This document shows, piece by piece, positions 4,698-19,753 of a DNA stretch of 20,615 nt (positions are counted from its first letter, which is position 1; every line of letters starts with the position of its first letter). The position numbers were made by a program, and so were the translations under genes. The notes under the pieces were generated by a model, which ran no database searches, was not told the origin of the DNA, and worked only from the letters and a program-made list of their open reading frames with translations. This DNA comes from a virus: the IMG/VR virus record IMGVR_UViG_3300024520_000588, positions 1 to 20,615 of that record; one strand, given 5' to 3'.

Positions 4698-4776
4698 ACT
4701 TGTAACCCGTTGGTATGTATAGACTTATGAGAATACTATAATAGTAGATGATGGATCATGGGCTGGCCTGTAACCT

Positions 4777-4837
4777 GTTGACACCAAAGGACTTACAAGA
4801 TCCATATAAGTTGTTGACAGTAAAGGACTTATGAGAT
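4777..4837 (+). repeat. Tandem 25-bp repeat starting GTTGACA
   Basis: Copies at 4777-4801 and 4813-4837 match at 21 of 25 positions with a 36-bp period. Each begins GTTGACA and contains AAAGGACTTA. The TTGACA would suit a -35 box, but no good -10 hexamer lies 17 bp downstream of either copy. A more diverged third unit starts at 4701. Confidence 0.7.
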
Positions 4838-4856
4838 TACACCTTCCAGACCACGT

Positions 4857-4876: not shown

Positions 4877-5044
4877 GTGCACTTGTGAATTTCTGACGTA
4901 CTTGCGCCCCTTTATTGTCAATGCCTCTACCCTAATCTCTAAGTCTAGTTATATCAACAGGTTACAACTATGCTACCTATGGATACTCAAGTCATCTGAA
5001 GCATAGATACCATAACCTGTTGCCCTGTAACGGGTTGCATGTTA

Positions 5045-5055
5045 CCGATACCCGA
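5045..5055 (-). repeat. CCGATACCCGA motif
   Basis: This is an exact inverted copy of the TCGGGTATCGG in the 37-bp repeats at 474-561, situated immediately after the last TGTAAC iteron. Confidence 0.65.
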
Positions 5056-5099
5056 TGCATGTGACAAAATACGTCAATAGGGATGTTAGGGTGAGCACC

Positions 5100-6565: not shown

Positions 6566-8625
6566 TGGGACTTAATAGTCAAGGACTCACAGCCAACAAT
6601 TCGTCAGCGGGTGTTGCACGTGCTGTCAGAGATCCGGACGAAGTATTACCCTTTGGCGATATTGTTGACGGCGAAGTCCTCATTCGCTCTGGCGACGAGA
6701 TCGTCAGTACGCCACCCGGCGGCGCTGTGGCGCACGATCTTGGTGGCGCATTACACAATGCTGACACCATTGCAGCTTTGAATGCCAAGATCAGTGACGC
6801 AACCCTGGACGATTCGGGTGACCCACGTGACCCGAATGCTCATTCTTTGGCAGGTGCTGAACACAATGCTGCAACACTTGCGGCTTTGAATGCCAAGATC
6901 AGTGATGCCAACCTGGACGATGCTGGTGACCCACGCGACCCGAATGCTCACAACCACACGCTTGCTGACATCACGGATGATGGTGCGCTCGCAGCCAAGG
7001 ATACCGTTGCAACGGGTGATATTGACAATGATGCTGTCGATAACACCAAAGCTGCCAACATGGCGACGGCCAGGATCAAAGGTCGAACAACGGCAGGAAC
7101 AGGTGACCCCGAAGATCTGACCGTTGCGCAAGTCGTTGCAATGCTTGCGCTTGGCAAAACGAAAGTCGTTACGCTCGGTGCTGGCAAGGATTTCACGTTC
7201 TTCAATGATGCTTTGGATGCGATCACCAACGATGCTCTCGCACAACGCGGTGTTATCCTCGCCTATGGGGATACGACAACTGATGCCGACGCCACGATCA
7301 TCAAGCCCACTGAAGTCCTGGGCATCTTCGGTGCGACGGGCAATGATCTCCCTGAAATTAATCTTGCAAATGAGGTCATATTCAAAGATCCGGGTGCCGA
7401 CACCAAGTTTGCCTCCAATATTCGTTTCACAAACACCAAGCTCAAAACGGATGTCGGTGTCTTCCACATTGCACAACAAGGTCGGTATCTGTTTGAGAAT
7501 TGTCACCTCTCCACGGGAAGTGATTTTATCCGAACAGACCTTTCGGTCACCGGCATCAAGGTACGGATGCGGGATTGTGTACTCAAGACCGATGATGCTA
7601 CCGATGTCATAATCAATCACGGTGCCTTCACGACCGAAATGGTCTTGACGCTCGAAAACTGTACCGAAGATCCAACGTCAGCCGCAGGATTCCTCCTCAA
7701 GGGTCCGGGAACGACTGGGAAACAAACAGTACAGTTGAACCTTCAAAACACGAAAATCACGTCGCTTCGGTCACTCGGTTCGCCGGATATGCAGACGGTA
7801 ATCCACCGCGATACATTGTCGGAAGGCCCGCCGACCGCAGGTATTGATACGAATGCAACACTCCGAGGTCGTGTTTCTGACAAACCGACCAAGTTTACAT
7901 ATTTCTCAAGTTTCCAGGTTCTTTATGGCGAGGTGAATACCTTGTCAACTCTTCCTGATACACAAGGTCGAGGTTGGGTTACGATCTATGAGCAGATACT
8001 TCCCAGTGTTGCTTCACTCGGTTCAGCGGGTGTCAGTGGGCGTCTCATCGATGCTGAACTTTCCAACGAGTGGTATGCCATCATTCATGCCGTTGATGCC
8101 GAAGACAATTCTGTCGGTCCAGCGGGCTATTTTGTAAATGAAGCCCGCTTCAATGGCACGTACATCGCTGATCTTGAAGCATTTGGCTACACGCATTTCG
8201 CTTTGGTCGGTTGGGTGAGAAACAGCGGCGTGTCAACTCTTGTACCCTTCTTCAAGGAAGGTGATACTTACGAGTACGATACGCCTCGGACGAATCTTCA
8301 AGCACTCACGGGTGGTGCTGCGACGACCAAAACAGTCGTCGATCTTTCGGACTTTTGCCCGCCGGGAACAAAGTCTGTCATGCTTGGAGCCAATCTTGAT
8401 CCTGGTGGTAACGGGGACTATGCAGGTATTGCACGTGGTGACACGGTGTTGACAATTGTTTCACAATTTCCCAACCAAGTTGGTTGTCAAGATCAATTTG
8501 GTGCGGGCTATCAACGCCAGTATCTTGAAACACAGGTCGATGCAAGCCGACAGATTGCATACATCAACAATGATGCCAGCAATCTACTTGACTTGTTTGT
8601 TGTCGGCTGCAAAATAGGACTTTAA
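6565..8625 (+). CDS. Tail fibre / tailspike-like protein (686 aa)
   Basis: The ATG overlaps the preceding stop (TAATG), and GGAG lies seven bases upstream. The N-terminal 50 residues (LPFGDIVDGEVLIRSGD) probably anchor to the virion. Residues about 60-130 hold two 36-residue repeats (HNA-T-AALNAKISDA-LDD-GDPRDPNAH). NHTLADITDDGALAAKD and NMATARIKGRTTAGTGDPEDLT follow, the short collar-type repeats typical of trimeric fibres. From about 200 to 430 the sequence resembles a right-handed beta-helix (FTFFNDALDAI, FENCHLSTG, MRDCVLKTD, LENCTEDPT), as in pectate-lyase-like spikes. The C-terminal 250 residues are beta-rich and may bind receptor. No catalytic residues could be assigned. The following gene is a DUF4376-like assembly protein, supporting the call. 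Confidence 0.8.
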   Translation: MGLNSQGLTANNSSAGVARAVRDPDEVLPFGDIVDGEVLIRSGDEIVSTPPGGAVAHDLGGALHNADTIAALNAKISDATLDDSGDPRDPNAHSLAGAEHNAATLAALNAKISDANLDDAGDPRDPNAHNHTLADITDDGALAAKDTVATGDIDNDAVDNTKAANMATARIKGRTTAGTGDPEDLTVAQVVAMLALGKTKVVTLGAGKDFTFFNDALDAITNDALAQRGVILAYGDTTTDADATIIKPTEVLGIFGATGNDLPEINLANEVIFKDPGADTKFASNIRFTNTKLKTDVGVFHIAQQGRYLFENCHLSTGSDFIRTDLSVTGIKVRMRDCVLKTDDATDVIINHGAFTTEMVLTLENCTEDPTSAAGFLLKGPGTTGKQTVQLNLQNTKITSLRSLGSPDMQTVIHRDTLSEGPPTAGIDTNATLRGRVSDKPTKFTYFSSFQVLYGEVNTLSTLPDTQGRGWVTIYEQILPSVASLGSAGVSGRLIDAELSNEWYAIIHAVDAEDNSVGPAGYFVNEARFNGTYIADLEAFGYTHFALVGWVRNSGVSTLVPFFKEGDTYEYDTPRTNLQALTGGAATTKTVVDLSDFCPPGTKSVMLGANLDPGGNGDYAGIARGDTVLTIVSQFPNQVGCQDQFGAGYQRQYLETQVDASRQIAYINNDASNLLDLFVVGCKIGL
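6754..6951 (+). repeat. Two tandem 108-bp coding repeats in the fibre gene
   Basis: The unit beginning CACAATGCTG at 6754 recurs at 6862, encoding two 36-residue repeats with the same NAKISDA and GDPRDPNAH segments. Most differences are at synonymous or conservative positions. The copies could recombine to change fibre length. Confidence 0.85.
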
Positions 8626-10089: not shown

Positions 10090-10850
10090 TGGCTGACAGA
10101 GAATTCAGAGATCTACCCGGTGACCCGACACCTGACGGTGGCGTCTTGATCCCGCATCAAGTTGCTACCGGCGGGCCTGGTTCTACCCGGACATCAACTC
10201 TGATGGCTCTTGTAGCATCTGTCCCGCCTAAGTCACATAACCACAATCTATCACAGGTAACAGATGCAGGAACGGCAGCAGCCAAGAATGTCCCTGCTGT
10301 TGGCAATGCCACAGTATCGCAGGTTGTTTTGGGATCGGATACTCGACTTACTGATGCGCGTACACCTACAGCGCACGGCCATGTCCTTGCTGACATCAGC
10401 AATGCGGGGACAGCCGCCGCCAAGAATGTCCCCGCAGGAGGCGATGCCGCTGCGGGTGAAGTCGTCCAGGGTAATGATTCTCGACTCATTAATAAGAGAC
10501 AACCCGCCAATAATGCGGATCTTAATGGGCATCGTGAGGCTCTTGATGTTCAAACAGGTGTGACAGGTGCCACAGCACTTGATCTTGACGGTCAGAATAC
10601 TTTTGATCTCACGATCGTAGGCAATACAACGATCACATTCTCCAACATCCCTGCTGGCAAACGAATTCAAGCCACACTGATCGTACGTCAAGGCGCTGGT
10701 GCACCAAATACTCTTGCGATCACCGGAGCCAAGTGGGACCAAAATACACCACCCACATTGAGTATCGGTGTTGGTGACATTGATATCATTGATGTCATGA
10801 TCATTGATGGTGAGATCTTTGCCTTCTTCGCAGGGGAGGCAATGGCATGA
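10089..10850 (+). CDS. Short tail fibre-like protein with collar repeats (253 aa)
   Basis: ATG 10089 overlaps the previous stop (TAATG). Residues 48-140 consist of phage fibre repeats: LSQVTDAGTAAAKNVPAVGN, VVLGSDTRLTDARTPTAHGH, VLADISNAGTAAAKNVPAGG, VVQGNDSRLINKRQPAN. This G-x-D-x-R-L-x-x-x-R signature is common in trimeric fibres and collars. The C-terminal 90 residues form a beta-rich domain (FDLTIVGNTTITFSNIPAGKR, then ATLIVRQGAGAPNTLAITG), a layout common for fibre tips. The N-terminus (PDGGVLIPHQVATGG) loosely matches the anchor of the longer fibre. It overlaps the next gene by 4 bp. Confidence 0.75.
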   Translation: MADREFRDLPGDPTPDGGVLIPHQVATGGPGSTRTSTLMALVASVPPKSHNHNLSQVTDAGTAAAKNVPAVGNATVSQVVLGSDTRLTDARTPTAHGHVLADISNAGTAAAKNVPAGGDAAAGEVVQGNDSRLINKRQPANNADLNGHREALDVQTGVTGATALDLDGQNTFDLTIVGNTTITFSNIPAGKRIQATLIVRQGAGAPNTLAITGAKWDQNTPPTLSIGVGDIDIIDVMIIDGEIFAFFAGEAMA

Positions 10851-11943: not shown

Positions 11944-13576
11944 GATGGAAGTAATGTTTAGGGACAGGCTGTCCGCCGGATTGAAACGCTCCACTGTGAC
12001 TACATGTACGCGGTGGGCTGAGCAGTTTCGTATCATGGGACAGCCATTCCCTGGTCATTGGTCTTCCAAGTGGCATCCCTGGACAAGGGCAATGCATGAT
12101 TGCAATGTTGATTGGGTAGGTCAGAAATGTGCACAGGTTGGTTTTACCGAGACCGCTCTCAACAGAACGTTTTACAAGATCGATGTTGAAAGGGTTGACT
12201 GCCTGTACGTCTTGCCGACCAAGACGCCTGACGCTTCGGACTTCTCCGCAGCCCGATTTGATCCTGCACTTGATCTTTCAGATCACCTATCGGCCTTGTT
12301 CTCCGAGGTCAAGAATATTGGTCACAAGCGTGCAGGTTCAGTCAACCTTTATATTCGTGGCTCTCGTTCAAGATCCCAATTGAAATCCGTTCCTGCCGGT
12401 TTCATCGCTTTTGATGAAGTCGATGAAATGAACCAAGAGAACATCACTCTTGCAGAGGAACGGATGTCTGGTCAGCTTGTGAAGCAGCAAGTGAAGATCT
12501 CGACACCTACGATTGATGGTTACGGGATCAATCGCTATTTCAATGAGTCAACAAAGGAACACTGGTACTTCCCTTGTCCACACTGTGGTCGTATCATTGA
12601 TCTTCTTTTCCCACGTAACATTGTGATCACCGCCGATCACATCTCCGATCTTAGCATTGAAAACACACACATTATTTGTCATCTTTGCAAGAAGGAACTG
12701 AACCACAAAGCTAAGCCCGATTTCATTGGCAAGGGCGATTGGGTTCCTGAACACAAGGATCGCGGCGTTAGAGGCTTCCACGTCAATCAGTTGTATGCTG
12801 CAACTGTTAAGCCTGCTGAGATTGCAAAGGCACATTTCCGTGCGCAGACCAATCCCGCTGATGAGCAGGAGTTCCACAACTCCAAGCTCGGTGAGCCGCA
12901 CATTGTTGAAGGTGCACGGATCACCGATGCCATGATCGAAACGTGCATGGGCCAACACAAGAAAGGTCCGACGAATAACGGTAGAATCATCACGATGGGT
13001 GTCGATGTCGGTACATGGCTTGATGTTGAGATTAACGAGTGGACGCTTGCACCGACACTCATTGATAATGACATCAATCTTTCTGCCAGCCCTAGAGTAA
13101 TTCTTGAACAACGGATGGCCGAGTTTGAACATCTTGATCGTCTGATGTTCGACTATGGCATCTATTATGTTGTCATTGATGCCAACCCCGAGCGTCGAAA
13201 GGCTGCTGAGTTCTGTCGCCGTTGGCATGACTATGCAAGTATGTGCTTCTATGGCAATAACATCAAAGAAAAAGAAATCAACGTGAATGAAGACGAACAC
13301 ATGGTAACTGTTGACCGCACATCTTGGATGGATCTTTCGTTAGGTCGGTTCAAGACACAAGACATCAAGTTACCTGTTGACGTGTCATTGGACTATAGAG
13401 CACATTTGAAAGCACCTGTGCGTGTGTACAGTAAAGATTCAAGCGGTAATCCGATCGCGAGATATGTCGAAGGTTCAAGTGCTGACCACTTTGCACACGC
13501 CAGAACATACAATGAGATCGCACTACAGTTTGCGGCAGCCATTGGCTCACCGCGAGACATCAGGAGTCCACTGTGA
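11936..13576 (+). CDS. terL: Terminase large subunit, lambda GpA type (546 aa)
   Basis: This is the DNA-packaging motor ATPase and headful or cos nuclease. With ATG 11936 as residue 1, the signatures are as follows. The deviant Walker A of the GpA family is K64-CAQVGFTE. The adenine-side segment YVLPTKTPDASDF is at 91-103. Walker B with the catalytic acid is IAFDEVDEM at 157-165, and the coupling motif is STPT at 189-192. A zinc ribbon has C214-x2-C217 and C248-x2-C251. RNase H-like nuclease acids are D357 (MGVDVG), D415 (VVIDANPERR) and D517 (SADHFAHARTYNE). ATGs at 11945 and 11954 are alternative starts, and none has a strong ribosome site; coupling to the previous gene is likely. The length is slightly below lambda gpA. 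It overlaps the portal gene by 4 bp. Confidence 0.92.
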   Translation: MHKMEVMFRDRLSAGLKRSTVTTCTRWAEQFRIMGQPFPGHWSSKWHPWTRAMHDCNVDWVGQKCAQVGFTETALNRTFYKIDVERVDCLYVLPTKTPDASDFSAARFDPALDLSDHLSALFSEVKNIGHKRAGSVNLYIRGSRSRSQLKSVPAGFIAFDEVDEMNQENITLAEERMSGQLVKQQVKISTPTIDGYGINRYFNESTKEHWYFPCPHCGRIIDLLFPRNIVITADHISDLSIENTHIICHLCKKELNHKAKPDFIGKGDWVPEHKDRGVRGFHVNQLYAATVKPAEIAKAHFRAQTNPADEQEFHNSKLGEPHIVEGARITDAMIETCMGQHKKGPTNNGRIITMGVDVGTWLDVEINEWTLAPTLIDNDINLSASPRVILEQRMAEFEHLDRLMFDYGIYYVVIDANPERRKAAEFCRRWHDYASMCFYGNNIKEKEINVNEDEHMVTVDRTSWMDLSLGRFKTQDIKLPVDVSLDYRAHLKAPVRVYSKDSSGNPIARYVEGSSADHFAHARTYNEIALQFAAAIGSPRDIRSPL

Positions 13577-15414
13577 GTAAGACGAAACTTCGCGCACACA
13601 AGATTTTCGATCCAGCGTACTTCCCACATACGGCGCTGACTGAACCTCTGCTGTCTGCACATCTTGCGGGTATTGGTCAGGTCGAAGATATTGGCAATAT
13701 TGTGCACCCGAGGTACACTCACAGTACAGCGAATTGGGAAAAGTATCGTTACACTCTTGAAAGTCAAAGGGAGTACGTCGAGAAATACTTGAAAAAGTTC
13801 AGCGATCGTGAAGATACGACTGATTTTGATCGGCGTAAGGCTATCACGTATGTCCCTTCATTTGCAAGATCCAATCTTCTTGAAGTGACAAACTCAATTC
13901 ACCAACGTCTCATCGATGTGACACGTACTGGTGGTTCCAGTGACTATCAACAGTCAACAGATGGTCTCAATGGTGGTGTTGATCTTAATTCAAACTCAAT
14001 GAATAGTTTCCTTGGTCAGCAGGTCCTTCAAGAGTTGGCAGGAATGGGTAAGGTTGGTTTGTATGTTGACATGCCACCTCTCTTTGGTGAGACGGCAGCC
14101 GATCAACGCGGCAAACGCCCGTACTCTTATCTTTATCAAGCTGAAGATATCTTGAATTGGGAGTTCACGGCGGATGGAAAGCCCTCACAACTTCAAATGG
14201 TCCTACTCCGAGATCATTTCTTTACAAAACATGAATCTCTTGGCCTTCCGCAAGAGGAACAAACTCGGTACCGTATGTTGTGGATTGAAAATGGTCAAGT
14301 CTTTATTCAGTTCTTCGACAGTAAGGGCATAACAATCAGCCCGAATGGTCTACCGGATACAAGCGGGCCTATCGCACTCAACATTCCTCGTATTCCTTTT
14401 GTGATCTTGGAACTTTCCGATAGTCTCTTGGCAGATGTTTGTGATGTTCAGATTGCTTTGATGAACATGGCATCTTCCGATATTTCTTATTCCTTGAAAT
14501 CGAATTACCCATTCTATGTTGAGAAGTTCAACCCTGTTTCTTCTCCGCAACACATCAAGCGTCCGAATAACCCCGATAATGAAGGTGAGGCCGCGCAACA
14601 AACTGCTGGGAAGAAGGAAATCAAAACAGGCGGTACATCCGGACGGCAGATTCCCAAGGATATGGACTATCCGATCTTTCTCAGTCCTTCTGCTGAACCT
14701 CTTCGCGCAAGCATGGAAAAGCAAGGAGAGTTAAAGCAGGATATCCGGAACCTGATGAATCTTTCTCTCTCGCGTGTGACGGCAACACGTGCATCCGCTG
14801 AAAGTAAGGACCGCGATGATCGAGCCTTGGAAGCAGGACTCTCGGCCATTGGGCTTGAACTTGAAGTTGGTGAACGTGACTTCGCAGAAATTTGGGCTTC
14901 GTATGAAGGTGGTAAATCCGCGACGGTCAACTATCCTGAGAATTGGGACATCCGCACGGATGAAGATCGACGTACAGAAGCAAAAGAATTACGGGAGTCT
15001 GCAATTCAAATCCCGTCACCGACATACAAGAAAGCCGTGGCTAAGCGGACGGTTCATCTTGTCATGGGGAACCGCGTCTCTGACGAAGATCTCACGAAAA
15101 TGGAAAAAGAAATCGACGACGCTGACTTTACGATTATTGATCCTGACATCATTGAGAAGGATGTTGAGCAAGGCATCCTTTCGGCTAAAGACGCAGCAAA
15201 AGCGAAGAATTATCCTGAAGGAACAACCGAAGAAGCACAGAAGGAACACGCGGAACGACTTGCAAGAATCAAGGAAGCACAAGCGGGACCAGAAGCTCGG
15301 GGCGTGGCAGACGAAGATGGACAGACTAACAGTGGCAAGATCGAGAAACAACAATCGCGGCAAACGGATGAAGATGGTACTGTTACCGATAAGACCCGAG
15401 GGGAGGGCGAATAG
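13573..15414 (+). CDS. Portal protein, DUF4055-like (613 aa)
   Basis: GTG 13573 overlaps the terminase stop (GTGA), and AGGAG lies six bases upstream. The portal is the dodecameric head vertex through which DNA enters. The sequence follows the DUF4055 pattern. YVEKYLKKFSDREDTTDFDRRK is the early helical part. QVLQELAGMGKVGLYVDMPP is the wing segment, and RPYSYLYQAEDILNW is the hallmark (about residues 178-192). A long helical stem and crown follow (ISYSLKSNYPF, LRASMEKQGELKQDIRNLM). The last 110 residues are highly charged (AKAKNYPEGTTEEAQKEHAE, ending DKTRGEGE) and probably disordered inside the capsid. The N-terminus SKTKLRAHKIFDPAYFP carries the tag shared with scaffold, coat and tail tube. 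Confidence 0.85.
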   Translation: MSKTKLRAHKIFDPAYFPHTALTEPLLSAHLAGIGQVEDIGNIVHPRYTHSTANWEKYRYTLESQREYVEKYLKKFSDREDTTDFDRRKAITYVPSFARSNLLEVTNSIHQRLIDVTRTGGSSDYQQSTDGLNGGVDLNSNSMNSFLGQQVLQELAGMGKVGLYVDMPPLFGETAADQRGKRPYSYLYQAEDILNWEFTADGKPSQLQMVLLRDHFFTKHESLGLPQEEQTRYRMLWIENGQVFIQFFDSKGITISPNGLPDTSGPIALNIPRIPFVILELSDSLLADVCDVQIALMNMASSDISYSLKSNYPFYVEKFNPVSSPQHIKRPNNPDNEGEAAQQTAGKKEIKTGGTSGRQIPKDMDYPIFLSPSAEPLRASMEKQGELKQDIRNLMNLSLSRVTATRASAESKDRDDRALEAGLSAIGLELEVGERDFAEIWASYEGGKSATVNYPENWDIRTDEDRRTEAKELRESAIQIPSPTYKKAVAKRTVHLVMGNRVSDEDLTKMEKEIDDADFTIIDPDIIEKDVEQGILSAKDAAKAKNYPEGTTEEAQKEHAERLARIKEAQAGPEARGVADEDGQTNSGKIEKQQSRQTDEDGTVTDKTRGEGE

Positions 15415-15861
15415 ATGCCTCAATACATGACTGAACCAGATGCGGATGCGTATCTGACCGGAAACCTCCTTGAACATGAGGCATGGGAATGTGCTGAAGT
15501 CCCCGAACGTAACTTGGCTTTGATCGATGCGACCCGCGCTATCGATAACTTGAACTTTCGTGGTTGCAAAGCTGACGAATTGCAAGTCAATGAATTTCCC
15601 AGGGGTGAGGATACGGTTGTTCCTCTTGCCATTCAACAAGCATGTGCTCTTGAGGCCATGTCACTGTTGGATGGAAAATCAACCGAAGATGAGATCGAGA
15701 ACCTGACGGCCGCAAACAGGGGATTTTCTTCAGTACGGACTACCTACGACCGTAAGCAGGTGCAAGAATGGATTGCCAACGGAATCACTTCCGCGCGTGC
15801 CTGGCAATTCATCATGTCATTCTTGCGCGATGCTGAAGAAATCAGAATCAGTAGGGTGTAA
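15415..15861 (+). CDS. DnaT-like head-tail connector (148 aa)
   Basis: ATG 15415 directly follows the portal stop, and GGAGG lies eight bases upstream. Features of the phage DnaT-like / adaptor family are visible: an early DADAYLTGN helix, W28-type aromatic (HEAWECAEV), RNLALIDATRAIDNLNFRG (A-L-x-x-A-T-x-x-I-D), then VNEFPRGEDTVVPLAIQQAC (F-P-R followed by I-P..A). Such proteins bind beneath the portal as connector ring 1. Here the gene lies between portal and scaffold, whereas connectors more often follow the coat gene. The C-terminal tail (WQFIMSFLRDAEEIRISRV) is basic, as expected for insertion into the portal. Confidence 0.7.
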   Translation: MPQYMTEPDADAYLTGNLLEHEAWECAEVPERNLALIDATRAIDNLNFRGCKADELQVNEFPRGEDTVVPLAIQQACALEAMSLLDGKSTEDEIENLTAANRGFSSVRTTYDRKQVQEWIANGITSARAWQFIMSFLRDAEEIRISRV

Positions 15862-15872
15862 GGAAAAGAAAG

Positions 15873-16769
15873 ATGAAGAACAAGAAAAAAGTGTTTGCGT
15901 TTCTGAACCTGCGTCAACGTTCGATCTTTGCCAGTGCTTTCGAAGGCGAAGGTGGTGGCGAAGGTGGTGGTGAAGGTGGCGGTGAAGGTGGCGGTGGTGG
16001 CGGTGGTGGCGAAGGTGGTGGCGAAGGTGGTGGCGAAGGTGGCGGTGGTGCCGCTGGCGGTGGCCAGGGTGGCGGCGCAGCCAAGACTTTCACCGAAGCC
16101 CAAGTCAGCAAGATCGTCGAAGAGCGTGTTGCGCGCATGAAGAAGGACACCGCAGGTCTTTCAACACGTGTTGAAGATCTGACCTCGAAAGTCCAGATGT
16201 CGCAGGACGAAAAAGACGAGATCGCCAAGCAGCTTGAAGACGCCAACAACCGCTTCAAGTCCGCCGAACAGATCCAAAAGGAAACAGCGGAAAAAGCAGC
16301 AACGGCCCATGCTGAAGCTCTTCAAACCGCCAATGGTCAAACGGCCCATTACAAGAGTCTCTATGAGACAAATGTGATTGACCAAGCGATCGTCGGCGCG
16401 ATGGGCGAATTCGAAGCAATGCCCGGACCTGCTCTTCCTGCGATTTTGGCGCCGATGACGGTGGTGAAGGAAACTGTTGATAGTGATGGGAAGCCGACGG
16501 GCAAAATGGCGCCCGTTGTGAGCTATCCCGACATTGATCCTGAAACGAAAAATCCGGTCACGCTCGATCTGTCCGTGCGTGATGCTGTGAAACGGATGAG
16601 TGAAGACGATGTTCAGTACGGCAATTTGTTCAAAGGAAAGGGTACAGGTGGTGTCGGCGGAGGAAACGCCGGTGGTGGCCGTGTGGCGACCCAGGATGTC
16701 AAAGGGATGTCAACCTCTGAGTACCAAAAACAGCGTAAGGAAGGCAAACTTGCGCACCAGAACCAATAA
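15873..16769 (+). CDS. Capsid scaffolding protein with N-terminal tag and Gly/Glu linker (298 aa)
   Basis: ATG 15873 follows AGGA with an eight-base spacer. Position before the coat gene and composition identify a scaffold. Residues 71-160 are a long charged helix or coiled coil (FTEAQVSKIVEERVARMKKD, VEDLTSKVQMSQDEKDEIAK, LEDANNRFKSAEQIQKETAE). A C-terminal region of about 100 residues ends in a short basic segment (TSEYQKQRKEGKLAHQNQ) suited to coat binding. Residues 24-70 are almost only Gly and Glu in EGGG units. The N-terminus (NLRQRSIFASAFEGE, residues 12-26) resembles the N-terminus of the coat protein. No protease domain is present. Confidence 0.8.
   Translation: MKNKKKVFAFLNLRQRSIFASAFEGEGGGEGGGEGGGEGGGGGGGGEGGGEGGGEGGGGAAGGGQGGGAAKTFTEAQVSKIVEERVARMKKDTAGLSTRVEDLTSKVQMSQDEKDEIAKQLEDANNRFKSAEQIQKETAEKAATAHAEALQTANGQTAHYKSLYETNVIDQAIVGAMGEFEAMPGPALPAILAPMTVVKETVDSDGKPTGKMAPVVSYPDIDPETKNPVTLDLSVRDAVKRMSEDDVQYGNLFKGKGTGGVGGGNAGGGRVATQDVKGMSTSEYQKQRKEGKLAHQNQ
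15942..16079 (+). repeat. Low-complexity GGTGGCGAA-type tract in the scaffold gene
   Basis: About 138 bases of near-repeats of GGTGGTGGCGAA encode (E-G-G-G)n and poly-Gly. Codons vary between GGT and GGC, but the units are similar enough to allow slippage or unequal recombination. The strand asymmetry (G on +, C on -) could allow G-quadruplexes in the mRNA. Confidence 0.85.
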
Positions 16770-16782
16770 GGAGTTTACGACC

Positions 16783-18210
16783 GTGAAGACAATGAAACTG
16801 CGTGCATTGGCGATCTTCGCCGGTGCTTTCGACAACGACAACCGCGCCCTCATCCCTGAGTTGTGGGCACAGGAAGGTATCGCAATTCTCGTTGAGCAGA
16901 TGGTGGCTGCTGCCCTTGTCCACCGTGATTTCGAATCCGAAGTCGCCGAATTTGGCGACGTGGTGAACACGCGCAAGCCGCAGGAATTCAAGGCGAAGCG
17001 CAAGGTTGACGCCGACAACGTGACGGTACAGGATGCAGTCAGCACAAACGTTGCTGTCCGCCTGGACCAGCACGTCCACGTGTCTTTCCTCATCAAGGAC
17101 GGCGAACGTTCCAAGTCGTTCCAAGATCTGATCGTGACGTACCTGGAACCGGCCATGATCGCGATGGCGCGACACACAGACCAGATTGTTCTGGCGCAGT
17201 TCGCGCAGTTCCTGAACAACTCGGCCGGTCAGCTCGGTGACGGTGCCAGCAAGAGTTCGCTGACGCGCACTCGCAAGGTCATGAACGACAACAAGGTGCC
17301 GCAGCAGACGCGGTATCAGACCTTGACCAGTGAAGCCGAAACGGACTACCTGGAAATCGACAACTTCATGACGGCCGACAAGATCGGTGACGATGGCACG
17401 GCCCTGCGTGAAGCGTCTCTGGGCAAGAAGTTCGGCATCTGGTTGCTGCTGTCGCAGAACATGTCCGACATTGCGGCGGGCAACACGATTGTTGTGACAA
17501 CGTTGGTCAACCTCATTGCCGGTTACGCGAAGGGTGACACGGTCTTGCTCGTTGACGGTGGAACGGCAGCCGCAGACGCGCCGCTTGGTGCGTATCTGAC
17601 GATTGCGGGTGATGACACGCCGCATCGTATCGAAGCGATTGTTGGTGATCCGGTCACGTCGATCACGCTCGACACGCCGCTGAAGTTTGCGGTGGCCAAC
17701 GATGCCGTCATCACGATCTATGCGCCGGGTGAAGTCAACCTCGTCGCTGGCTACGCTGGCTTGCTGGCCGACGGCACGCCCGGCTACGCCAAGGAAATCG
17801 TCGTCGATGGCTTCACGGTTGCGCCGCAGGTTGGCCAGTTGGTCAGCTTTGGTGTGGGCACCGAGCAGTATGTGATCATCGACACCGATGACACGGGACT
17901 TGTTGGCATCACGCTCGACCGTCCGTTGGAGACGGCCATCGCCAACGATGACAACGTGAACATCGGTCCGGCGGGCAACTACAACTTCACGTTCCACCGG
18001 AACTGTCTGTCTCTGGTGACGCGTCCGTTGGAAGCGGCCATGGCCGGAACCGGTGCAAGCTCGGCCGTCGTGAACGATCCCGCAAACAACGTGGGAATTC
18101 GTGTGACGATCACCTACGATGGCAACAAACAGGGCCATCTGGTGACCTTGGACTTCCTGGCCGGCGTGAAGGTGCTGGACGAAGATCTCGGCGCGGTAAT
18201 GCTCTCCTAA
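16783..18210 (+). CDS. Major capsid (coat) protein, P22-like (475 aa)
   Basis: The start is GTG 16783, with AGGAG nine bases upstream; ATG 16792 has poorer spacing. The order LIPELWAQEGIAILVEQMVA, VHRDFESEVAEFGDVVNTRK, FKAKRKVDADNVTVQDAVST, VRLDQHVHVSFLIKDGERSK, LEPAMIAMARHTDQIVL fits P22 gp5-type HK97-fold coats. These have a helix-rich N-arm, the early E-x-G-D-x-V loop, and a long spine helix. Residues about 250-402 are an insertion made of two similar beta-rich units, with SITLDTPLKFAVAND at 293-307 and GITLDRPLETAIAND at 375-389. The C-terminal part (SLVTRPLEAAMAG, GIRVTITYDGNKQ) closes the fold. The first 16 residues carry the tag KLRALAIFAGAF. The GC-rich, regular codon use suits the most highly made protein. 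Confidence 0.88.
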   Translation: MKTMKLRALAIFAGAFDNDNRALIPELWAQEGIAILVEQMVAAALVHRDFESEVAEFGDVVNTRKPQEFKAKRKVDADNVTVQDAVSTNVAVRLDQHVHVSFLIKDGERSKSFQDLIVTYLEPAMIAMARHTDQIVLAQFAQFLNNSAGQLGDGASKSSLTRTRKVMNDNKVPQQTRYQTLTSEAETDYLEIDNFMTADKIGDDGTALREASLGKKFGIWLLLSQNMSDIAAGNTIVVTTLVNLIAGYAKGDTVLLVDGGTAAADAPLGAYLTIAGDDTPHRIEAIVGDPVTSITLDTPLKFAVANDAVITIYAPGEVNLVAGYAGLLADGTPGYAKEIVVDGFTVAPQVGQLVSFGVGTEQYVIIDTDDTGLVGITLDRPLETAIANDDNVNIGPAGNYNFTFHRNCLSLVTRPLEAAMAGTGASSAVVNDPANNVGIRVTITYDGNKQGHLVTLDFLAGVKVLDEDLGAVMLS

Positions 18211-18223
18211 GGAGCTTTTCGGC

Positions 18224-18251
18224 GGGAGCGGCCCAATGACGGGCCGCTCCC
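18224..18251 (+). terminator. Stem-loop after the coat gene (attenuator or stabiliser)
   Basis: Perfect 11-bp GC-rich arms GGGAGCGGCCC / GGGCCGCTCCC enclose AATGAC, 13 bases after the coat stop. No T-run follows (CAAACCGAGG), so full intrinsic termination is unlikely. It may protect the coat mRNA 3' end or reduce read-through into the neck genes. Confidence 0.75.
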
Positions 18252-18267
18252 AAACCGAGGGATAAAC

Positions 18268-18696
18268 ATGAGTCAACTGAGAATGATACGACAAACGATC
18301 TATGCTCTCAACAGAGAGTATGGTCGCGCAATCGTGATCGTTCGTCCCACGGTCACCGAGCGAGACTTCACGGAAGGTTGTCTTGAGATCGAGACGGATA
18401 AGACCAAGATCCGTCGGGCAATTGTTTTGCCTTCTGCCGGTCAACGAGACTTTGACTACGATCTGTCGTTCATTGCTGCGAACAAAAATTTCACATATGG
18501 TGCGTTGTTTGAGAAGTCTGCGCGTCCGATCATTATTGAATCCAAGTATTTGCCCAAGGACTACGTGATTGATCATGAGAGTCACGTGGAATTTGACAGC
18601 AAACGCTGGGAGATCAAGAAGATCGAAACAATCCTTGAAGGACGAGCTATTGGTCTTATGGTTCAAGAAGTTCAGAGCGAGGCTCCGACACCATAA
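18268..18696 (+). CDS. Putative head closure / neck protein (142 aa)
   Basis: ATG 18268 follows a GAGGGATAAAC leader. The protein begins MSQLRMIRQTIYALNREYGR. It ends with a segment typical of head-closure proteins, HVEFDSKRWEIKKIETILEGRAIGLMVQEV, where a Phe/Asp turn leads into a strand with W-E-I-K-K-I and then a last strand. The centre is beta-rich (RRAIVLPSAGQRDFDYDL, RPIIIESKYLPKDYVIDHES). Position after the coat gene and before the tail terminator supports a connector sealing the head and docking the tail. The family is inferred from layout. Confidence 0.6.
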   Translation: MSQLRMIRQTIYALNREYGRAIVIVRPTVTERDFTEGCLEIETDKTKIRRAIVLPSAGQRDFDYDLSFIAANKNFTYGALFEKSARPIIIESKYLPKDYVIDHESHVEFDSKRWEIKKIETILEGRAIGLMVQEVQSEAPTP

Positions 18697-19181
18697 TGCC
18701 AAACACCAGACTACCACAATGGATCTTCCTGTCAGCCGTTGAGTACTTCAGGAAAATCGTCGAAGACGACGAATCCCTCAAGTACTTTGTTGAAGGTGAA
18801 CCGAGAACGACGGACAAGGACACTGAGTACATTGAGTTTCGGCTTGATGGCCCTGAGTCCGAAGAAGTGAGTCACAACTATTGGCACCATGATGTCGAGA
18901 TCAATCTCGCTATCACGGTTGTTCAAAAGAAGGACATCGGGCGAATACACCGATATGTCGGGATAATCGTCCAAGCGATGAACGCTGAAATTCCGGTCTT
19001 CAAATATGGTTGCCCAACTGATGTGGCAAATGACAAGTCGTTTATTGGATGCTTGCAATTACGTCGTGAATTCAGGGAGCGTGCAATCGTTGCCGCCCAC
19101 TTCGGCCAAGTAGAGGCCAGTCTCAATGTCATGCAAGCGACTGTCGAAGGTCACTTCCGTCTAACCTTGTGTGAGGACTAA
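18696..19181 (+). CDS. Putative tail terminator / tail completion protein (161 aa)
   Basis: ATG 18696 overlaps the previous stop by one base. The pattern fits tail terminators of the lambda gpU / SPP1 gp17 type: an N-terminal helix (IFLSAVEYFRKIVEDDESL), then strands in which the acidic EYIEFRLDGPES is followed by HHDVEINLAITVVQKKD. A helix follows (RIHRYVGIIVQAMNAEI), then two C-terminal strands (FGQVEASLNVMQATVEGHFRL). Such proteins form the ring that stops tube growth and joins tail to head. The gene lies immediately before the tail tube gene, where terminators normally are. Confidence 0.6.
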   Translation: MPNTRLPQWIFLSAVEYFRKIVEDDESLKYFVEGEPRTTDKDTEYIEFRLDGPESEEVSHNYWHHDVEINLAITVVQKKDIGRIHRYVGIIVQAMNAEIPVFKYGCPTDVANDKSFIGCLQLRREFRERAIVAAHFGQVEASLNVMQATVEGHFRLTLCED

Positions 19182-19186
19182 AAAAG

Positions 19187-19753
19187 ATGAAGCTCCGTGC
19201 ATACAATGTGTTCGATCCTGCCTACGGGCAGATCGACCTCAAGAATGCCACCCTGATCATCAGGGATGGTACAACGCCAACAGCGCAAGAATTGGAGATC
19301 AAGATCGGTGAAGGAAACTTCACGTGGACCGAGCGGCAAGAAATGAATTACGTTCTTGACCGTGGCCGCTTGGACATCGTGAACGAAGGCGACGAACAGC
19401 CGGTCGAAGTCAGCTTCGATGGCGTCTGGGAATTCATCACCGCGTTTGCGGGTGATGCTCCGACGCTCATCGATGCGTTGAAACGGTCGGGTGAAGCTGC
19501 ACCTGCTGCGGACAACTGGGTGTCTGTTGACACTGATGTCTGTCAGCCGTTTGCTGTGCAGCTTGAAGTGCGGCACGTACCCGTCTGTTCGGGTGCAACG
19601 GTTGCCGCGTCCGATCCGTTGGAGATCACCGTCATTGATCTGTTCCGTTGGGAACAGATTGACTACGATCTTCGTGCCGGTACGTTTGCAATTTCTGGTC
19701 GCGCGAATGTGACGGAAGCCGTCAGCTCCCGGTTCACGCAGACCTCGACGTAG
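19187..19753 (+). CDS. Tail tube (major tail) protein (188 aa)
   Basis: ATG 19187 starts five bases after the previous stop, with GAGG about ten bases upstream. The protein is beta-rich with the strand-loop-strand layout of tube proteins. ATLIIRDGTTPTAQELEIKI leads into GNFTWTERQEMNYVLDRGRL, then EVSFDGVWEFITAFAGD, the tube-type V-x-F-D-x-x-W/F segment followed by a helix. DPLEITVIDLFRWEQIDYDL and GTFAISGRANVTE form the final strands. Position between terminator and chaperone agrees. The first 13 residues are MKLRAYNVFDPAY, the best match to the portal's N-terminal tag. Confidence 0.75.
   Translation: MKLRAYNVFDPAYGQIDLKNATLIIRDGTTPTAQELEIKIGEGNFTWTERQEMNYVLDRGRLDIVNEGDEQPVEVSFDGVWEFITAFAGDAPTLIDALKRSGEAAPAADNWVSVDTDVCQPFAVQLEVRHVPVCSGATVAASDPLEITVIDLFRWEQIDYDLRAGTFAISGRANVTEAVSSRFTQTST

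Follow-up and report, generated by a model that had tools for sequence, protein, structure and literature searches.

The scaffold and coat proteins of a large, almost uncultured group of phages, often together with the tail tube protein, begin with an N-terminal peptide tag that is alike within each phage and differs from one phage to the next. We put at roughly 0.5 the probability that these tags are leaders which a cysteine peptidase of papain fold (C39-like), encoded by the phage and shared by its substrates, cuts off, a reading drawn by analogy with known leader-processing systems.

The window (the whole stretch of DNA analyzed, 20,615 bases) is one IMG/VR virus contig, a fragment. Its right half encodes a head-tail module comprising a gpA-type terminase, a portal, an Ad1 connector, a scaffold, a P22-like coat protein, two connector-type genes and a tail tube (Table 1). 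The coat gene starts at a GTG at 16783, with the SD sequence AAGGAG. The tube had no match in any family library, and was recognized from its AlphaFold model, which matches the tail tubes of P74-26 and T5 best and also that of DT57C (model m410782a542d5; mean pLDDT 79.7, about 51 for residues 1-10). The N-termini of the portal, scaffold, coat and tube read as given in the preliminary description, all four beginning with one motif: when every ORF start of the window record was scored for the shared motif, the four tagged proteins reached 41.8, 41.2, 35.2 and 32.5, and the best other ORF 12.5. Homologue searches with the window portal and with the window tube returned no close homologue, and a scan of IMG/VR with the exact DNA motif of the window tag returned no match, so the specific motif is private to the window phage. 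Among relatives, the linker behind the scaffold tag has a composition that depends on the phage (GGGE, DPDP, PAGDPP, NKET or poly-Ala). Elsewhere in the window, two presumed tail-fibre-like proteins contain internal duplications at 6753-6950 and 10264-10448 (a 90-nt repeat, 88% alike, at 108-nt spacing, and a 47-nt repeat, 79% alike), and non-coding stretches of the left half hold short AT-rich direct and inverted repeats, possibly regulatory, at 774-813, 4699-4842 and 5013-5067.

Table 1. Tagged proteins of the window, their tags and the scaffold linker (a slash marks the presumed junction between tag and body)
Feature	Position	Strand	Basis and remarks
Portal	13573..15414	+	phrog_145, E 4.7e-36; 38-residue N-terminal extension absent from nearly all homologues
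Tag KLRAHKIFDPAY in portal, residues 5-16	13585..13620	+	N-terminus read and motif scan; portal = M-SKT-KLRAHKIFDPAY
Scaffold	15873..16769	+	phrog_206, E 9.8e-13; Pfam Phage_scaffold
Tag NLRQRSIFASAF in scaffold, residues 12-23, presumed junction F23/E24	15906..15941	+	MKNKKKVFAFL-NLRQRSIFASAF
Gly/Glu flexible linker after scaffold tag	15942..16082	+	Sequence; other low-complexity linkers there in relatives
Coat (major head), P22-like/HK97 fold	16783..18210	+	phrog_283, E 1.4e-55, and coat alignment
Tag KLRALAIFAGAF in coat, residues 5-16, presumed junction F16/D17	16795..16830	+	MKTM-KLRALAIFAGAF
Tail tube	19187..19753	+	AF2 model resembles P74-26 and T5 tail tubes
Tag KLRAYNVFDPAY in tube, residues 2-13, presumed junction Y13/G14	19190..19225	+	M-KLRAYNVFDPAY

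Relatives were found via the terminase (29) and the coat (more than 500). Their tags differ from that of the window, each being common to the proteins of its own phage, which corrects the initial picture of the tag as one fixed sequence: YQIKWVG in L008, PFKVAH in L033, W.NVY in L016, IQLTYC in L100, and in L096 RFVPSLFTPAH on both coat and tube. For 88 related IMG/VR phages, the similarity between scaffold and coat tags within a phage was 26.9, compared with 13.9 after the phages were shuffled and a maximum of 16.0 in 20,000 shuffles; a larger set of 121 distinct phages gave 21.1 for same-phage pairs versus 7.0. About a third of the tubes (33 of 90) scored as tagged, at a level that some 10% of mismatched pairs also reach, and tagged portals were seen in 4 of 107 phages (the window, L013, L082 and L119).

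Only scaffold and coat, with the tube, carry their phage's own tag regularly among about 28 core families, and the remaining families show no excess of it, save for one protein in one phage. The preliminary description had raised the case that the pattern might be equally frequent at the N-termini of non-structural proteins; across these families that does not occur. Now and then the tag is found on other proteins: the tape measure protein in G004, two small proteins in tandem on the head-module side in G014, and one replication-module protein in G007. The G014 pair (L153:6238-6513 and L153:6557-6832) are 91-aa paralogues encoded a short way upstream of the terminase region; each starts with the tag of its own phage, and neither has a PHROG match. 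The G007 protein (MTMNRIFVSVFDG; 30208-30912 on the minus strand, = L047:10208-10912) is the only non-virion carrier seen; it has no family match, and its counterparts are untagged in the 18 other records scanned.

Untagged coats begin M-ANSLDAF or M-ANDLDAF, and tagged coats run tag/ANSLDAF; likewise, untagged tubes begin M-AQIDLK or M-AVIDLK, and tagged tubes run tag/AQIDLK. The Met-Ala start of the untagged proteins coincides precisely with the end of the tag, which marks the tag as a leader added to the protein, and loss of the initiator Met from the one and of the tag from the other would leave identical mature ends. In alignments, the 29 portal homologues match the window portal from residue ~37-45 onwards, and coat homologues match the window coat from ~12-18. 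The tag had indeed been described as appended to unrelated folds, and the refuting case named there, homologues with these residues as part of their own folds, does not occur. The likeness between coat and scaffold tags is highest near the junction: identity within a phage is 0.50, 0.47, 0.49 and 0.41 at P1, P2, P3 and P5, compared with 0.25, 0.17, 0.13 and 0.14 after shuffling, and it fades upstream. This junction-side matching, strongest at P1-P3 and P5, is what the sequences of a cleavage site would be expected to show. P1 is mainly Tyr or Phe, with [YF]/A in most coats, and P1' is Ala in coat and tube and Glu/Asp in the scaffold. Of the roles proposed at the outset, that of a removable leader is the best reading here, and nothing found here points to delivery of the proteins to a membrane or compartment.

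A candidate enzyme surfaced in core-gene clustering of the long relatives, as a family of 130-180 aa proteins. The family has just two invariant columns, C11 and H121, and a near-invariant D132, which together supply Cys, His and Asp, with the Cys at the start of the first helix (residues 11-20). Its AF2 model (pLDDT 96.5) predicts a papain-like fold: the top Foldseek matches are staphopains and the leader-peptidase domain of PCAT1, along with the C39-like 3b79, with probabilities to 1.0 but E-values above 1e-3. This candidate papain-fold Cys-His-Asp protein is undescribed; a Pfam search with eight members at E up to 1 and a tblastn search of cultured phages gave no match, and comparison with PHROG gave no meaningful one. 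Peptidase C39, the family of bacteriocin leader peptidases such as PCAT1, removes N-terminal leaders. The candidate resembles it in its predicted papain-like fold and its Cys-His-Asp residues, but is a stand-alone phage protein with no ABC transporter, and the leaders here lack a double glycine, Tyr or Phe being the main residues at P1.

The candidate gene lies in the replication module, in the conserved order DNApol, VRR-NUC, NYN, peptidase, sigma-like, and does not adjoin the scaffold gene, beside which prohead proteases are usually encoded. In the systems of the HK97 (S78), ClpP-like and T4 gp21 (S77) prohead proteases, one enzyme trims several head proteins that share a motif. Several proteins share one motif here as well, but the tail tube, which lies outside the capsid, is tagged too. 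An S78 or ClpP-type protease was found in 0 of 21 records, with positive controls; the S77 profile also gave no match, and its control was equally silent. That no protease had been seen in the window reflects the 20.6 kb fragment, which does not reach the peptidase locus, whereas the relatives encode the candidate elsewhere in their genomes; judging by them, the window phage probably has it too.

Every one of the 22 tagged records spanning the locus has the peptidase (19 long records, G044 and two Planctomycetota MAG contigs). The only untagged record to cover the locus is G006, as the remaining untagged records do not reach it; there, the NYN and sigma-like genes are adjacent, with no peptidase, and the coat begins MANSLDAYIPELW, the scaffold MSTSEEV and the tube MAQIDIK. 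In the coat tree, the G006-type coat (L222) groups with tagged coats, among them that of the peptidase-bearing G022, which suggests a joint loss of tag and peptidase. Untagged coats turn up at scattered positions in this tree, implying that gain or loss happened repeatedly. Tagged G045 and untagged G043 were considered as peptidase-free and set aside, both records stopping before the locus; p215, considered as an alternative partner missing in G006, was likewise rejected, as that record ends where p215 would lie. Across 21 phages, tag and peptidase similarity are weakly correlated (rho 0.26, p 0.011; partial p 0.05), and DNA polymerase similarity tracks tag similarity as well as the peptidase does, or better. 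G016 has the weakest tag pair, with Lys/Arg at P1, yet the peptidase is present. The two Planctomycetota contigs, L149 (QQVP01000119.1, 444 kb) and L150 (CAUJHS010000076.1, 290 kb), hold complete-looking tagged proviruses with the peptidase, and are the best lead to a host.

We infer that the tag is cleaved and that the peptidase is the agent. The N-terminal leader would single out virion proteins that are abundant and self-assemble (scaffold and coat, often the tube, at times the portal or tape measure), and would be recognized by one shared partner, most likely the phage-encoded enzyme, which would cut at the junction of tag and body, typically after Tyr/Phe and before Ala (coat, tube) or Glu/Asp (scaffold). 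With a single enzyme acting on every substrate in a phage, leaders would then match within a phage and drift between phages. The broader proposal, that a widespread phage group matures its virions with a private, co-evolving pair of leader and peptidase, each phage having its own key, we rate at slightly worse than even odds.

A system of related design is known from Staphylococcus phage 80alpha, in which 13-14 N-terminal residues common to the non-homologous coat (gp47) and scaffold (gp46) are cut off by the host protease Prp (MEROPS C108); the major tail protein of phi13 has this motif too (PMC5744158). The 80alpha junction is ..F/A, and no phage prohead protease was found (PMC5744158, PMC9405229). 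The initial statement that no such phage signal had been described therefore stands for the sequence of the tag but not for its kind. As in 80alpha, one N-terminal motif is found on coat and scaffold within a phage, and the [YF]/A of most coats fits the F/A cut, as far as sequence can tell. Unlike the Prp phages, which share LNLQFFA, the phages described here each have a different leader; the Prp motif MLxx[DN]LQ[FL]F/A, identical to the leader of host L27, is absent; some portals and one tape measure protein have the leader as well; and in place of Prp the phages encode a candidate enzyme that is papain-like. The combination of matching leaders with a small papain-like protease in most of these phages suggests, by this analogy, a lock-and-key maturation like that of 80alpha.

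The main rival, which we consider unlikely but serious, is that the tag remains uncleaved as a docking or assembly peptide. It would bind one phage or host partner, be it a chaperone, an assembly factor or a further tag copy, and this common partner would coordinate how coat, scaffold and tube fold or assemble. In favour of docking, the tag of the scaffold is followed by a long flexible linker, as expected of a docking peptide. Moreover, 80alpha needs the N-terminus of its scaffold for assembly but can do without the cleavage, and a common chaperone was proposed there (PMC5744158). Docking accounts less well for the concentration of matching at the junction with the body and for untagged relatives that begin exactly there, and in untagged G006 the gene whose loss is most specific is that of the peptidase.

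Cleavage by a host protease of the Prp type, with phage parts imitating the leader of a host substrate such as ribosomal protein L27, is a good deal less probable still. The layout in 80alpha is alike, in that coat, scaffold and a tail protein carry a leader ending ..F/A (PMC5744158, PMC9405229), but the tags here vary among relatives whereas LNLQFFA is constant among Prp phages. No Prp (PF04327) was found in 22 phage records or in the two Planctomycetota MAGs with tagged proviruses, where L27 is short (MAHKKG..) and without a leader; in those two MAGs, mimicry of a host leader found no support. An Acetothermia MAG (G030:C23, L219) has a sub-threshold Prp-like ORF directly before L27, which there too lacks a leader (LRMAHKSS..).

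The tag is conserved as a peptide, because codons differ: of 216 cases of identical tag residues across 18 phages, 96 share the codon, against 73 expected under uniform usage, and agreement is far lower at third codon positions than at first and second ones. This bears out, on a wider sample, the earlier remark that codons differ among the window copies and that the protein is what is conserved. The codon evidence, together with the absence of any Rfam match, led us to reject a DNA or RNA element. It is also very improbable that the first codons form an expression signal that boosts translation of the most abundant proteins, the peptide likeness following from the RNA: the tagged proteins are mostly expected to be high-copy (coat, scaffold, tube), but third positions diverge, synonymous codons differ and other expressed genes lack the tag. 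A recent duplication of DNA, or a chance likeness that has no function, is scarcely credible. In the window, the DNA of the scaffold tag does agree with that of the coat tag at 78% over 40 nt (repeat D16), and a DNA stretch that is nearly identical occurs in one phage, L018; yet the likeness persists across 88-121 diverged phages with codon divergence, and none of 20,000 shuffles came near it.

Within-phage matching offers a simple rule by which the coat, scaffold and tube genes of unknown phages can be annotated. If cleavage by the candidate peptidase is correct, these phages would do with an enzyme of their own what 80alpha achieves with that of its host, a second solution to one task, and the candidate would represent a new cysteine peptidase family with substrates among both head and tail precursors. 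Their many naturally matched pairs of leader and enzyme would be a ready-made set for learning protease specificity. The purpose of a removable leader on self-assembling proteins is still unclear according to the authors of the 80alpha work (PMC5744158), and the matched pairs would allow one to test why such proteins carry it.
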